A DNA stretch of 64,000 nt from Verrucomicrobia bacterium LW23 (GTDB lineage: Bacteria > Verrucomicrobiota > Verrucomicrobiia > Methylacidiphilales > UBA1321), in the NCBI GenBank assembly GCA_003054695.1, contig QAZA01000009.1, positions 62,001-126,000 on the forward strand, in the 5' to 3' direction. The notes beneath the pieces are model-generated. The model searched no databases and had not been told where the DNA came from. It worked only from the letters and a program-made list of their open reading frames with translations. Of the stretch, positions 31,233 through 46,787 are shown piece after piece (positions within the stretch are counted from its first letter, which is position 1; the number at the start of each line of letters is the position of its first letter). A program made the translations under genes and the position numbers.

Positions 31233-32921
31233 TCACGTGGAGGGCGGGGGGATGTCGACGATGACGCCGTTGCGGGCGGCGGCGGATAGGGCTTCCAGAA
31301 CCACTTTGGCGGTGGGGGCGGCGTTGAGGTTGGCGGCGAAGGCGGCGAGTTTGGCTTCGCAGTCTTCGGGGCTGGTGCTGTCGAGGATGATCCGCCGGAT
31401 GGGCGCGAGGGTTCCGCGGAAGGCCCGCGCGAGGTCGGGGGCGGTGGCGTTGATGATCGCGTCGTTGGCGGCGAGGTTTTGCTCGTGGCGATCTTCGGCG
31501 CCGCGGGACGCCAACGCGATGAGCATGGGCAGGGGCAACGTGACGTTGTGGCCGTCCATGCGCAGGGCCTTGGCGGCGTCCTGGATGCCGGGCAGCGCCA
31601 GCGGCGCGCCTCCCCCCGCAGGCAGGGTACCCGGTGCTGGCAGGCCGGGCAATCCAGGGAGGCTGGGCGCGGACGGCGCCGCAATGCGACGGATGCCGAA
31701 GCCGAAGCGCTTGGCCAGCACGGGGATGGCGTCGTCTGTCGGCTCCATGCTGCTCTCCTTCAGCTGCTTCAGCAGTGTGGAGAGGGCCAGCGATTGCCGC
31801 GTCGAGTCCGGCGCCCACAGCATGTCAGGCAGTATCCCAGCGAGGCCATTGATCGCGCAGAACTGGGCGGTCAGCTGCTCCTTGAATGTCTCGCTCAGCA
31901 GAGTGGCATCGAGCTGGCGGATGTCTTCGCGCACTTGCTCCTGGGCGTCCGCCACGCCTGAGCCCATGCCGGTGGCCTGGGCGTCGGCGCTCAGCGTCTG
32001 CCCCACGATGAGCTTGCTCATCTCGCGGCACGCCACCTCGTGGAAAGCCTGAAAGGCGTCGCCGCCCTGGCTGGAGCTGGTGCGTTCCTTCAGCTCCACC
32101 TCCGTATCGCGGGAGATGACAAGGCCGCCGAGCCGGGTGGCGACGGACAGCGCGCGCATCAGCAGGGTGCGGCTGGCGTCGTCGTTCGAGTCGTACTTGC
32201 CCACCAGGAAGGGGGTGCCGAAGCGGTCCAGAAACTGGATCCACCACTCGCGCCCCTGGGTGGCGAATAACCACCAGAACAGCAGGGAGCGCAGCGGGCC
32301 GCCCCAGTGATCCGGCGTGGAGAGCAGGTGGCCGCGGTGCACAATGTAGCGGTTGGGATCGGGCACGTGCACCGTGCTCAGCGGCTCGCCCGTCTCGGGG
32401 TTGGTGTCGCGGATCCGCAACTCGCCGACGCACTGGGAGTAATCCAGCAGCTCGTACGGAACGGGAATCAGCTCCCGCAGCCGGTAGCCGCCGCCGGGCA
32501 CCGGCTCGTAAATCTTCTCCACCACGGAGACGGGGTAAAGCGCGGAGTCCAGCAGGTGCGACACAGCGCGCAGCCATCCCTTGCAACCCTTCTGCATGGC
32601 GGCCACCGCTTTCGCGGCCTGCTCATCCGCCGGCGTGGCCGGATCGTTGCCCGGCTCCACCGCGAGGGGCGTCCCCAGCACGGCCAGCTTGCGTTTGGTA
32701 AACTCCGTCTGCAGGTGGGAATGGCTGGAGATGATATCCCGGTAGCAAGCGAAAAGCGGGCGCACATCGCCGTTCTCCGCCGCCCGCAGGATAGACTGCA
32801 GGCGGTCCACCGTCATGCTCGGCAGCGTGGTTCCCGTCTCGTACATGGTGCGGAAGATTGTCTTCCGCTGCACGGGAATCAGGCTCGTCATCAGATCCTT
32901 GGCCCATTGTACTAGGTTCAT
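31233..32921 (-). CDS. Phage portal protein (DUF935, Mu gp29-like)
   Basis: The 562-residue protein has DUF935 features: an N-terminal helical region, LDYSQCVGELRIRD, WWLFATQGREWWIQFLDRFG and SKLIVGQTLSADAQATGMGSG. The portal is the dodecameric vertex through which DNA is packaged. The C-terminal 150 residues are Ala/Pro-rich with an extra helical domain. Its ATG overlaps the stop of the DpdA-like gene (ATGA), so translation is coupled. It is the last gene before the prophage end. Confidence 0.9.
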   Translation of the reverse strand: MNLVQWAKDLMTSLIPVQRKTIFRTMYETGTTLPSMTVDRLQSILRAAENGDVRPLFACYRDIISSHSHLQTEFTKRKLAVLGTPLAVEPGNDPATPADEQAAKAVAAMQKGCKGWLRAVSHLLDSALYPVSVVEKIYEPVPGGGYRLRELIPVPYELLDYSQCVGELRIRDTNPETGEPLSTVHVPDPNRYIVHRGHLLSTPDHWGGPLRSLLFWWLFATQGREWWIQFLDRFGTPFLVGKYDSNDDASRTLLMRALSVATRLGGLVISRDTEVELKERTSSSQGGDAFQAFHEVACREMSKLIVGQTLSADAQATGMGSGVADAQEQVREDIRQLDATLLSETFKEQLTAQFCAINGLAGILPDMLWAPDSTRQSLALSTLLKQLKESSMEPTDDAIPVLAKRFGFGIRRIAAPSAPSLPGLPGLPAPGTLPAGGGAPLALPGIQDAAKALRMDGHNVTLPLPMLIALASRGAEDRHEQNLAANDAIINATAPDLARAFRGTLAPIRRIILDSTSPEDCEAKLAAFAANLNAAPTAKVVLEALSAAARNGVIVDIPPPST

Positions 32922-33646
32922 ATTTCCTCCTCCTTTATGCGACTACGAGCCGCAGCAACAAATAAGTCGTCTGTCTGTAGTCGAATGGATGTCCAAAGAG
33001 GGCTAGCTATCGGGGTGGGATTCAACCTGGCCCACTCCTCTAGCCCAGAGGTTTGTCGTAAGTCACCTCTCTGCCATCCTGTCCCGTCGCATGATTCAAC
33101 GCCAAGCGACTCCAACAGCTGGAGCTTTTCAGGGCTATTGCAGCGCAAAACATGTACGCGAGGGAAATGCTGTGTCCAATGGTGAAGCGTCTCCCACTTC
33201 CACTTTGTTGTCCCGCCGATGGCTATAACATCGGGGAGCGGCTTTAGAGACCGGATATCGTCTGCCGTCATCCCGTTCTGCACAGCGATAGCTAAGGGGA
33301 TTTCCAACCCCTGGACCAACGGTGCATAGATAGGCCACCGTTGCAGGGTACCATATCGGCACCCTGGTCTGTCAGGCACAATCGCCCATAGAGGTTTCTG
33401 TTGCCAGTTTCCCGACGCCCAAGCCAGTAATTCTCTCCACTGAGGTTCAATAACCTTCCAGCGTTGCTCATCAAAAGAATTGTCGACGGGGTTCCAACAC
33501 GCGAAAACTCCGTTATCCAGAGCGTAGGGAATCCATGGCCAAGGGCCTCGCTGTGCACCTGGGGAGTACAGGTGCCCTATTCGAGACGTTTCGCGCGCAA
33601 GGCAATGCCAAAACCACCCGGTAGAGTTTGCTGGCATCACGATCAT
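32918..33646 (-). CDS. DpdA-like DNA 7-deazaguanine transglycosylase (TGT-fold)
   Basis: The 242-residue protein resembles phage DpdA/DeoxyPurine-in-DNA proteins of the tRNA-guanine transglycosylase superfamily. Landmarks are ALDNGVFACW (Asp44), LWAIVPDRPGC (Asp92), PLAIAVQNGM (about 123), VIAIGGTTKWKWE (Gly144-145), VHVLRCNSPEKL and VESCDGTGW (Asp187). Such enzymes exchange guanine in DNA for a 7-deazaguanine made by queuosine-type enzymes, which blocks host restriction. The start MIVMPAN follows GGAGG by five bases and overlaps the terminase stop (ATGA). The composition is less GC-rich than terminase and portal, suggesting later acquisition. No preQ0 synthesis gene is visible in the window. 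Confidence 0.65.
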   Translation of the reverse strand: MIVMPANSTGWFWHCLARETSRIGHLYSPGAQRGPWPWIPYALDNGVFACWNPVDNSFDEQRWKVIEPQWRELLAWASGNWQQKPLWAIVPDRPGCRYGTLQRWPIYAPLVQGLEIPLAIAVQNGMTADDIRSLKPLPDVIAIGGTTKWKWETLHHWTQHFPRVHVLRCNSPEKLQLLESLGVESCDGTGWQRGDLRQTSGLEEWARLNPTPIASPLWTSIRLQTDDLFVAAARSRIKEEEI

Positions 33647-35274
33647 GCCGCCCTCCATTCTTGCGCCGGCAGATTCTCCGGCGCGTACGGGTTACGAATC
33701 CCTGCACGCGGGGCCTTCATCTCCATCCGCCCCACCTGCACACCTGTCGCCTCCACCGGGCCGCTGCCGTGGCGCAGCCCGTAGAGCGCGAGTTTGCTCG
33801 AGTCAAAAGTGTCGCCGTGGTTGCCGCTGGTGTCCGTCTCCGTCACGAAGCGGCCCTTCTCCTTCTTCACCAGCAGCATGTCCTTGCGGAGCCATTCGTG
33901 CTGAGCCAGAAGCACTTCCCCATCCTGCACGGCGTTGGAGAAGAGGTTGCCGAGGTACGTCTTCATGTCCATTTCCTCGGCTTTGTAGGTCGTCTTGGTG
34001 CTGGAGACCACGATCTCCACGATGATCCACGGGATTAGCGCGCGCTTCACGTTCACCGCGTGGAAACGCTCGTTCGAGCCATCCACGCACAGGCGGCGCA
34101 GCTTCTTGCCGGCGTGGTACATCTCCGTCACCACCTGCTTCAGCAGCTCAATGCAGTCGTCGGGATCCGCGCTTTTCCAGCGCATCGTGAAACGGGCCAC
34201 CATGCGGTGGCCCACCTTCTCTCCCACGGTCAGCGCGCTGGGGTTGCTCGTCTTGTTTTCCGTGGTAGCCACGTCGTAGCCCAGGGCGATCGGCCCGTCG
34301 CCGACCTTCGCGCGCGCCATCCAGTCGGCGGGCAAGTCTTCCCGATCGATCGCAAAGCACTCCGACGCACCGGCTTCCATCGCGTGGCGCAGCGCGGCGC
34401 GGTCCAGCGCGTTAATGCCGCCGGCGCGCATGATCAGCTCAAAATTGCGCGCGTAGGCGTCGCGGTCCATGGCCTTCGCTTTAGCCTCGGCGGCGGTGAT
34501 CTCCTTGCGGCTGTCCATGTCGTACGTCTTCACGCCGCACGCTTCCGCGTCGTACACGTCCACCCGGTGCACGCGGATCCCCGCCTGGCTGCGATACCAG
34601 TTGCCGCGCGGGTTCACCTCAAACGTGGTGCCCTCGGGCGGCGCAGCCATCTCGTACGCAAAGTGCGAGTCGTCACGCCCAATAGTCGTGCACATGCGCA
34701 CCTGAAAGAGGGGGCTCGAGCTAATGATCGGTTCCACCGCTTCCCACAGCCCGCGGAAGTCCTCAATAAACCAGATCTCATCCAGCAGCACAAAGCCGCT
34801 CCAGCCGCGCGCCGTGGCGATGTTGGGGGCGATGACCTGCGTGCGCGAGTAGATGGAGGGGCTGTGGTACAGGCGCGTCTGCAGCTTTTGCCGGGTGAAC
34901 AGATCTTTGAAATCGTCCACGTTGATATCGTCGATCGCCGCCTCGCGGTCTGCGGCGTGCAGCCGCAGCAGCATGCCCAGGCTTTCCGCCTGCTTGCGCA
35001 TCTCATCCAGCGTGGAGTAGAAGAGGGCCGCCTCCTTCTCCGCCAACTCCGTGCCCAGCAGCAAACTGGCGCTGGCGTAGGTGACCAGGCAACCGGGATT
35101 GAGGCCCATCCAGTGCATGGCCTTCGCCGCCATCGTCCGGCTCTTGCCGCGCTGGCGCGCCCACAGCCACAGCTGCAGCCCGTACTCCGCCCAAAACGCC
35201 TCCTCCTGGTAGGGGCGCATTTTAATGAGGCCGGCCGGGGCGGGCGCGGCGGCGGATTTACGTGCCCGCGGCAT
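33643..35274 (-). CDS. Phage terminase large subunit (Mu gp28-like)
   Basis: The 543-residue protein contains a Walker-A-like WLWARQRGKSRTMAAKA, a Walker-B-like SGFVLLDEIWFIEDF (hydrophobic strand then Asp-Glu), and a nuclease half with PIALGYDVATTENKTS, LCVDGSNERFH and a late GDTFDSSKLAL. It drives ATP-dependent packaging and headful cutting. The start MPRARKS was chosen; ten upstream residues are also in frame. It overlaps the end of the small terminase gene by 17 bases and is coupled to the DpdA-like gene. Confidence 0.92.
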   Translation of the reverse strand: MPRARKSAAAPAPAGLIKMRPYQEEAFWAEYGLQLWLWARQRGKSRTMAAKAMHWMGLNPGCLVTYASASLLLGTELAEKEAALFYSTLDEMRKQAESLGMLLRLHAADREAAIDDINVDDFKDLFTRQKLQTRLYHSPSIYSRTQVIAPNIATARGWSGFVLLDEIWFIEDFRGLWEAVEPIISSSPLFQVRMCTTIGRDDSHFAYEMAAPPEGTTFEVNPRGNWYRSQAGIRVHRVDVYDAEACGVKTYDMDSRKEITAAEAKAKAMDRDAYARNFELIMRAGGINALDRAALRHAMEAGASECFAIDREDLPADWMARAKVGDGPIALGYDVATTENKTSNPSALTVGEKVGHRMVARFTMRWKSADPDDCIELLKQVVTEMYHAGKKLRRLCVDGSNERFHAVNVKRALIPWIIVEIVVSSTKTTYKAEEMDMKTYLGNLFSNAVQDGEVLLAQHEWLRKDMLLVKKEKGRFVTETDTSGNHGDTFDSSKLALYGLRHGSGPVEATGVQVGRMEMKAPRAGIRNPYAPENLPAQEWRAA

Positions 35275-35965
35275 CGGTCCCTCCTTCCTCAGGCGCAGCA
35301 TCATCGGCGGGGGCCGCCGGCTTTGCGCCGAACATCAGGGCCATCAGCGCCTGCACGCGGCCGTCCTTTGTCGGGCGGCTGGCGGCCTCCAGGGCGCGCT
35401 TGTCGCTGTACCACTGCAGGAATTTTTCGCAGGTGAGCAGCTGCACGCGCAGCTCCGTCGCGGCCACCTCGCGCGCCTTCAGATCCAGGCGCTCGCGCGT
35501 AAAGGCTTCGTGGGATTTCTGGCGGCGCGCCTCCAGTTCCAGAGAACGCAGCGACGCAATGCCGGCGATGAGCTTGGGGAAATTCTCATCATCCACCTTT
35601 TCCAACACGCCCATGATGCGCCCGCCGGCAATCGCCGCGGTGCCGTCCATGATGGAGCCGCCCGCCGCCTCGCCCAGCTTGAGGGCGAACTCGGCCAGAT
35701 CCTTCGTGTCCGCAATGCGCTCGCGGCGGCTGAGCCAGTTCTGATAGCCGCCCTGGCGCCACTCGCTGAGGTTTTGCGGGGAGATCGGCTCTTCGTGAAA
35801 CTGCTCATCCAGCACCCGCAACACATCCTCCTGAGTGTGCAGCCACGCGATAATCTTCGGCCCCGGCTGTCCGTCGTAAATGCGGCGGCACACCTCATTG
35901 CGGATGGCAACAGGCAGGCGCGCAATCTTGCCGACTCGGGCGGGTTCGGGGGTGGGTGTGGGCAT
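35258..35965 (-). CDS. Terminase small subunit (DUF3486, Mu gp27-like)
   Basis: The 235-residue protein has the DUF3486 layout: KIARLPVAIRNEVCRRIYDG, then a helix-turn-helix with ISPQNLSEWRQGGYQNWL, and a long charged helical region with FTRERLDLKAREVA. It recognises phage DNA ends and recruits the large subunit. The gene begins two bases after the stop of a 59-residue gene and ends inside the large-subunit gene, as usual for a tightly packed packaging operon. Confidence 0.88.
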   Translation of the reverse strand: MPTPTPEPARVGKIARLPVAIRNEVCRRIYDGQPGPKIIAWLHTQEDVLRVLDEQFHEEPISPQNLSEWRQGGYQNWLSRRERIADTKDLAEFALKLGEAAGGSIMDGTAAIAGGRIMGVLEKVDDENFPKLIAGIASLRSLELEARRQKSHEAFTRERLDLKAREVAATELRVQLLTCEKFLQWYSDKRALEAASRPTKDGRVQALMALMFGAKPAAPADDAAPEEGGTDAAGT

Positions 35966-44912: not shown

Positions 44913-46787
44913 ATGCCCCCAACTGAGGATCATATGACAATCGCCAATCAGCGCATGGATACGCTGCGGCGGGTGGATGAAAAAATCGCTCAGTTGGGGT
45001 CTGAATCTCGTGCGTGTCGAGCCCTAGGGCTGAGCCAAGCAACCATATCCAGGTGGCGAAAAGCCCACGCGGAGCGCGGATTCCAAGGCCTGGTCCCCGC
45101 CTTCGATGCGCGTGGTCGTGATCCCCTCTGCGTAATCACCCCGGCTGAGGATCAGGCGCTTAAGGCAATATACATCTCCACGGAGCGGACGGCGGAGGCG
45201 GGGAGCAAGACGGCGGCGGCGCGGATGTTTGCGCAGTCGGCGCGGTGTTCGGAGGAGTTGCGGGAGGCGATTCTGCGCCCGCGCTCCAGCAAGCACAAGC
45301 TGACGTCGGTGATTCGGCGGGTGATGGATGTGCCCAAGGCGGTGGTGCAGCACCATCGCCGGCCGTCCGATACGGCGAAGGATTTTTATATGACGTTACG
45401 TGGCAATACCTATGAGGATCACACGGGCCGGGAAGTGCCGATGCACGCGGGCGCGTTGTGGGAGTGGGATGACGCCACGATCAATTTCCCTGTGGTGGTG
45501 GACTGGCCGTGGGGCGGCGACAAGTGCTCGGAGCGCTGGGGTTGTCGCGTGGGCCGGTTCCAGCTGTTGCTGGCGGTGGACGCGGCGACGCTTTATTGCC
45601 CGGCCTACTCCTTTGTGGTGCGGCCGCATGAGGCCTACCGGGCCACGGATATTCTGGGCGTGATGGGCCAGGCCTACACGGATGTCGGCGTGCCGCTGGT
45701 GACCGGGCTGGAGCAGGGCACCTGGAAGGCGCAGAGCGTGCAGACCGCCCTGAACGCCGCCGGCACCAAACCTTTCTATGCCTACAGCAGCAACGGCAAG
45801 CCCTTTATCGAGAACTATTTCGGGCGCCTGTGGACGCCGCTTTCCCTTTTCCCCGGCCACGTGGGCCGCACCCGCGGCAGCTTTGAGTGGAACAGCAAGA
45901 TGCTGAGCCGCTGCCAGTCCGGTGCCGTCAATCCCCGTGAGCATTTCATGTCGCTGGAGGAAGCGATGGAGCGCCTGGCCGCCGCTATCGAGTGGGTAAA
46001 CGCCGAGCCGATCGAGAGCAAGCGCCGCGGCCACTGGATCCCCGCCGTGCGCTGGCAGCAGGAGCTTGCCGAGCGCCCCATGCGCCCGCTTTCCGCCGAT
46101 CAACGCTGGCTTTTCTCCCCGGAGCGCCGCCAGTGGACGGCCCGCAAGGCGTTTGTGGGCGGCACCGTGGAGACGCCCGGCGGCAAGGTGCAGATGTATT
46201 TCCGTCACGACGACCTGTGGATACACGAGGGCCGCCGCATCGACGTGCACTTTGATCCCTACATGCCCGACGCCCCCGCGCGCCTCATCCTTGCCGAGGC
46301 GTGGAGCGAGTACCGCGCCGGCCACGTTATCGGCGACACCACGGCGGAGGCGGAAACGCCTGTCTTTACCCTGGCCGCAGACGGCTTTGCCGGTGACGCC
46401 CGCGCCGACGCCAACGACGCTCGCCGCCGCTTCAACGCCGCCGTGCGCACCGAGTACCGCACCACCGGCCTCTCCCACGGCCGCATGGTACCGCGCGCCG
46501 CCGTCTCCGAGATGCGCACCCACGACGGCCAGGTGGCCCGCGTGGAGCGCAATACGCGCCGCCCGGCCGGTGCCCCCGCCTCCTCTCCCGCCGCCCCCCG
46601 CGACACGCCCGCGCAGGCCCCGCGCACTCCCCGCGCGGAGCCCGCGGCGTTTGAGACGCCGGCGCGGGAGAGCTCCCCCGCGCCCACACCCAGCGCCGCC
46701 GCCCGTGACGCGGAGCATGAGCGTCTCCAGCAGATGGAGGATGCGCTGCGCGACAGCGGCACGATAGTGCCCGATTGGGCTTATTGA
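44913..46787 (+). CDS. Mu A-like transposase (rve/DDE core)
   Basis: The 624-residue protein has an N-terminal helix-turn-helix (ACRALGLSQATISRWRKAHAE, shortened to its core), an RNase-H-like core, a Mu-type beta-barrel (from about 390, with MYFRHDDLWIHEGRRIDVHFD) and an Ala/Pro-rich C-terminus. The first acidic site is in LWEWDDATINF (Asp186/187). The last is NGKPFIENYFGRLW (Glu300). Between them, where a DNG-type Asp is usual, the sequence is TGLEQGTWKAQSV with Glu267. It would carry out phage integration and replicative transposition with the MuB-like protein. Confidence 0.88.
   Translation: MPPTEDHMTIANQRMDTLRRVDEKIAQLGSESRACRALGLSQATISRWRKAHAERGFQGLVPAFDARGRDPLCVITPAEDQALKAIYISTERTAEAGSKTAAARMFAQSARCSEELREAILRPRSSKHKLTSVIRRVMDVPKAVVQHHRRPSDTAKDFYMTLRGNTYEDHTGREVPMHAGALWEWDDATINFPVVVDWPWGGDKCSERWGCRVGRFQLLLAVDAATLYCPAYSFVVRPHEAYRATDILGVMGQAYTDVGVPLVTGLEQGTWKAQSVQTALNAAGTKPFYAYSSNGKPFIENYFGRLWTPLSLFPGHVGRTRGSFEWNSKMLSRCQSGAVNPREHFMSLEEAMERLAAAIEWVNAEPIESKRRGHWIPAVRWQQELAERPMRPLSADQRWLFSPERRQWTARKAFVGGTVETPGGKVQMYFRHDDLWIHEGRRIDVHFDPYMPDAPARLILAEAWSEYRAGHVIGDTTAEAETPVFTLAADGFAGDARADANDARRRFNAAVRTEYRTTGLSHGRMVPRAAVSEMRTHDGQVARVERNTRRPAGAPASSPAAPRDTPAQAPRTPRAEPAAFETPARESSPAPTPSAAARDAEHERLQQMEDALRDSGTIVPDWAY

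Follow-up and report, generated by a model that had tools for sequence, protein, structure and literature searches.

The gene lying between the terminase and portal genes of a Mu-like prophage very probably encodes a compact DpdA, an enzyme that would replace guanine in DNA by a 7-deazaguanine, most likely preQ0, taken from the host pool. It was found in the window, that is, the whole 64-kb stretch of DNA analyzed here, where it occupies positions 32918–33646 on the minus strand, from an ATG at 33646 to a TGA stop ending at 32918. The 242-aa product is predicted to be a compact TGT-fold DNA 7-deazaguanine transglycosylase. An earlier note had proposed a DpdA-type protein on the basis of the motifs ALDNGVF, VPDRPG, AIGGTTKW, and SCDGTGW, all four of which are indeed present in the 242-aa protein. 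An alternative in-frame ATG upstream, at 33658, would yield a protein of 246 aa; the start at 33646 was preferred because the relatives begin at MxVMPAN. A chance reading frame is ruled out by the 241 IMG/VR stretches that encode relatives.

The neighbors were identified by their profile matches, which confirmed the position between terminase and portal. Upstream lies the terminase large subunit gene terL (33643–35304, minus strand; PHROG 2, E 2.7e-12) and downstream the gene of a Mu-type portal protein (31233–32921, minus strand; Portal_Mu PF06074, E 4.7e-66). Coupling by ATGA was also seen on both sides, as had been claimed: the terL stop overlaps the dpdA-like start at 33643–33646, and the dpdA-like stop overlaps the portal start at 32918–32921, both on the minus strand. 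On that strand too, a Shine–Dalgarno sequence GGAGG for the dpdA-like gene lies within the end of terL (33652–33656), and that of the portal gene, AGGAGGAGG, lies within the 3' end of the dpdA-like gene (32926–32934). The gene directly upstream of terL (35258–35965, minus strand) probably encodes the terminase small subunit, and its adjacency to terL is conserved in relatives. The same prophage also encodes a MuA-like transposase (44934–46787, plus strand; PHROG 310, E 1.1e-18), a MuB-like protein, a head protease, a major head protein, and a DnaB helicase. The dpdA-like gene is carried by a Mu-like prophage in a bacterial genome.

The assignment to DpdA is supported by homology, conserved residues, predicted fold, and gene linkage in relatives. 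The protein had no match in Pfam (E up to 1, TGT PF01702 included), NCBIfam, or PADLOC, and PDB sequence searches with the protein or its profile returned nothing useful. It falls in PHROG 15826, a family of unknown function, and the family profile found >500 related stretches in IMG/VR. From the 241 stretches, 80 relatives were kept which, apart from the phage itself, are 54–67% identical to the protein. Relatives in annotated phages are 26–36% identical, and several of them, including distant ones in actinophages, are labeled "DpdA-like." The earlier note had suggested a profile search against the DpdA family as a check. When the family profile was compared with a profile of nine phage DpdA, 9g and CAjan included, hhalign gave an E value of 1.7e-7 and a score of 58.2, the best of 40 column shuffles reaching 17.1; identity in this alignment was 17–19%. 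A lack of catalytic Asp residues, which the note had held to be fatal to its proposal, was not observed: D44, D92, and D187 align with D72, D114, and D215 of 9g DpdA, and H165 aligns with H196. Across 18 relatives, down to 26% identity, the invariant residues include D44, N45, G46, P91, D92, Q123, G125, G144, G145, H165, R168, N170, D187, G188, and T189; the putative active-site residues D44, D92, Q123, G144-G145, H165, and D187 are among them. The DpdA2 group is defined by the absence of the DpdA conserved histidine 196 (PMC6884629). This histidine is present here as H165, which places the protein outside that group. Two comparisons were negative. No hhalign match was obtained between the family and a bacterial TGT alignment, but known DpdA failed likewise against the same alignment, so this result does not count against a TGT fold. 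The bacterial DpdA model NF041059 did not match the protein either, and phage 9g DpdA is also below its cut-off (13.9 of 200 bits).

The AlphaFold2 model showed a TIM barrel with a pLDDT of 86 and a disordered stretch of 19 residues at the end. Judged by the secondary structure of the model, D44, Q123, G144, and H165 are placed at the ends of strands or immediately after them, which fits an active site at the mouth of the barrel. In a Foldseek search against the PDB, the sole match with E <0.001 was TGT 4q4q (E 6.5e-4), and DpdA 7ui4 ranked sixth. The superposition on TGT, which had also been suggested as a check, gave a Z of 12.5 over 202 residues with VIA-align, so that the predicted fold is TGT-like; a missing TGT fold, which the note would also have taken as a refutation, was not observed. 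Ribulose-phosphate epimerases, which are generic TIM barrels, scored nearly as high (Z 12.3), and the fold alone is therefore not decisive; the sequence profile is.

The family is tied to preQ0 by gene linkage that recurs in unrelated phages. Fourteen relatives have preQ0 genes beside them, in several gene orders. In four loci (L055, L060, L062, and L065), the relative is directly followed by queC, queD, queE, and folE2; in L060, it overlaps queC by ATGA, and the four preQ0 genes, which form a complete operon, were all confirmed by Pfam. In L069, the relative is followed by queC, queD, and folE2, and queE was not found there. More distant relatives (L177–L183 and L189) are adjoined by queC, queD, queE, or folE in other orders, and on a Verrucomicrobiales contig (L185), queC lies directly upstream and overlaps the relative. 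We also observed C5-cytosine DNA methylase genes near the DpdA-like gene in L064, L065, L073, L075, and L076; the phages concerned may therefore carry two DNA modifications.

As the earlier note had stated, the window contains no preQ0-synthesis gene, and none was found in the 12 kb before or the 20 kb after it. The note had suggested that host queuosine precursors may be used instead, and a search of the genome for queC, queD, and queE. The host encodes two QueC, QueD, QueE, QueF, and TGT, which makes such a use possible. A group of phages with DpdA alone has already been described (PMC6884629). Among such phages, 7-11 and MED16, whose hosts make preQ0, carry dADG, and Orion, whose host makes no preQ0, has unmodified DNA (PMC8306585).

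We infer the following scheme, with DNA as the substrate and preQ0 as the base. The TGT-fold enzyme would break the glycosidic bond of a guanine in DNA and insert a 7-deazaguanine, with preQ0 the likeliest candidate. If the mechanism is that of TGT, D187 would act as the nucleophile and hold the deoxyribose, D44 would serve as the acid/base, and the base pocket would be formed by D92 with Q123 and G144-G145. Since preQ0 is not made by the prophage, it would have to come from the host queuosine pool. It would be expected to appear late, near the packaging of phage DNA, because its gene is translated between terminase and portal. Late appearance would confine the mark mainly to progeny DNA and would shield this DNA from restriction in the next host, the likeliest purpose of the modification. 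Such protection need not be strong: MED16 has a low modification level, and restriction was hardly altered (PMC8306585).

A special case of the compact-DpdA reading, which we regard as possible though unlikely, is that the phage copies a possible dPreQ0/dADG mark of its host and so passes Dpd restriction in related hosts. What favors it is the host genome itself. One end of contig C56, its start, carries genes for a bacterial DpdA (NF041059, E 7.6e-155) and DpdB (NF041060, E 3.1e-128), followed by an HNH protein, a second DGQHR protein, QueD, QueC, and conjugation genes, with a GC content of 0.49–0.53. The region (C56:1-40000, covered by L129:45-12000 and L168) resembles an ICE, with a MobF relaxase and VirD4/VirB-like genes. 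Dpd islands couple modification with restriction of unmodified DNA; some known islands lack the restriction operon (PMC11888242). In the host genome, DpdD, the marker of the restriction operon, gave no match in a search in which no control matched either, DpdC was matched only weakly, on a different contig (C55), and the C56 genes stand at a contig end. Moreover, the phage gene has widespread relatives, in places where Dpd systems were not sought. The fuller scenario, in which a compact DpdA entered the packaging operon of a Mu-like phage, which marks its DNA at packaging with host preQ0 in imitation of the Dpd mark of the conjugative element, is doubtful; if true, it would amount to a viral counter-defense aimed at 7-deazaguanine self/non-self discrimination. 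This host, in which bacterial Dpd genes occur together with a phage DpdA, allows a direct test of the idea of camouflage. Contig C56 also encodes a 1366-aa fusion of Pol IV-like and Pol III alpha-like polymerases, beside a LexA-like protein.

A second alternative keeps a TGT-fold enzyme acting on DNA, but with another base, such as preQ1 or a QueC/QueE intermediate, or with removal of the base as an attack on host DNA. Some relatives are adjoined by QueE only, or by QueC and QueE only, at some loci PAPS-reductase-like genes are found instead, and the host makes preQ1 via QueF. The fullest linked set (folE2, queD, queE, and queC), however, makes preQ0 and comes without QueF, and we consider this alternative rather unlikely. 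Genes for a PAPS-reductase-like protein (PHROG 424) were observed next to DpdA-like genes, or in their vicinity, in several unrelated phages (L003:18-818, L052:4587-5444, L059:4417-5319, and L073:5081-5941, and also ReqiPine5 and vB_EliS_R6L); this protein may act together with them in modifying DNA, by a 7-deazaguanine or otherwise.

The dpdA-like gene was horizontally acquired by this prophage. Neither its terminase nor its portal recurs in any of the other 79 close viral relatives of the gene, and a search for relatives of the two proteins in viral contigs found only the phage itself, or none. In 388 genomes of the phylum, a related terminase was found in 24, the window's own genome included, and the dpdA-like gene only in the window's own. 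At eight of the loci fetched from the genomes with a related terminase, terminase and portal genes are adjacent without the dpdA-like gene; the gene was therefore acquired and inserted cleanly between them. As the earlier note had remarked, it is lower in GC than its partners (GC 0.54 and GC3 0.56, versus 0.65–0.68 and 0.86–0.88 for terminase and portal), and the GC dip matches the borders of the gene. In the tree, the sister group of the window gene consists of L002–L005 and L008 (support 0.93), in which the gene stands upstream of a different terminase and portal comes next where the contig reaches so far. Many other relatives sit among replication and early genes. The claim that the place is unusual thus stands for this phage lineage, given the eight loci without the gene, but not for the gene itself, whose closest relatives also adjoin a terminase, in another phage type. 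The case also shows that DpdA-type genes occur in Mu-like phages. An acquisition that looks recent, judging from the GC content and the absence of the gene from related prophages, could also mean that the gene is a passenger and serves no function in this prophage at present. We hold this to be improbable: the ORF is intact, the family-invariant residues are all kept, and the gene has its own ribosome-binding site and is coupled on both sides.

Four known systems come close to the family, phage DpdA among them. In 9g and CAjan, the motifs follow in the order DSGAF, LDxIG, FHxGE, GG, HGFG, and SVDSSSW; the corresponding motifs in the window family are DNGAF, VPDxxG, VQDGM, GG, VHVLR, and SCDGTGW. 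The conserved Asp residues, the His, and, in relatives, the preQ0 linkage are common to both. The window protein is shorter by ~75 residues than 9g DpdA (242 versus 317 aa), its phage lacks preQ0 genes, and its gene belongs to the packaging operon instead of lying beside the DNA polymerase gene. The singleton proteins called "DpdA-like tRNA-guanine transglycosylase" of Mycobacterium and Arthrobacter phages (StevieRay gp54 and Sonali gp81) belong to the same family, with about 26–29% identity, 205–215 aa, and all invariant residues in common with the window protein; their genes differ in being located among early or unassigned actinophage genes. Mycobacterial hosts lack preQ0 synthesis (PMC6884629). 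Bacterial DpdA (from dpd islands, PDB 7ui4, and the host C56 gene) has the TGT fold too and presumably exchanges a base in DNA, but it is about 400 aa long and works with DpdB, and the NCBIfam and PADLOC DpdA models miss the window protein. Bacterial TGT (queuine tRNA-ribosyltransferase) provides the best PDB fold match, and D44 corresponds, via DpdA, to the Asp of DSGGF. The window protein is shorter by well over 100 residues, and it and its relatives lack the zinc site CxCxxC...H, whose residues C311, C313, C316, and H342 are invariant in the bacterial TGT alignment. It is thus very improbable that the protein acts, as TGT does, on tRNA or some other RNA and so alters translation during infection: the shared fold and the preQ0 linkage would suit either substrate, but its profile is nearer to phage DpdA, the zinc site is absent, and the host already has a TGT.

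With a compact DpdA as the preferred reading, PHROG 15826, an environmentally common phage family that no library had named, gains a name and a probable function. The DpdA kind of enzyme is already known; what is new is this compact unnamed branch and the place of its gene, although the subfamily may have been described earlier. Further phage 7-deazaguanines are reportedly described in one paper.

The genome contains two identical copies of the gene. Transposition of the prophage was considered as the cause and rejected, as the entire 64-kb window is duplicated at 100% identity: it recurs in contig C10 in reverse orientation, within a shared stretch of 149.5 kb. Its two ends are where C9 and C10 begin, and the duplication is therefore most likely an assembly overlap. 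Finally, the prophage (window positions 31233–64000) has a divided layout. The genes terS, terL, dpdA, and portal run leftward and end at its left edge next to host genes, transposase, helicase, and head genes run rightward, and portal and head genes lie >20 kb apart.
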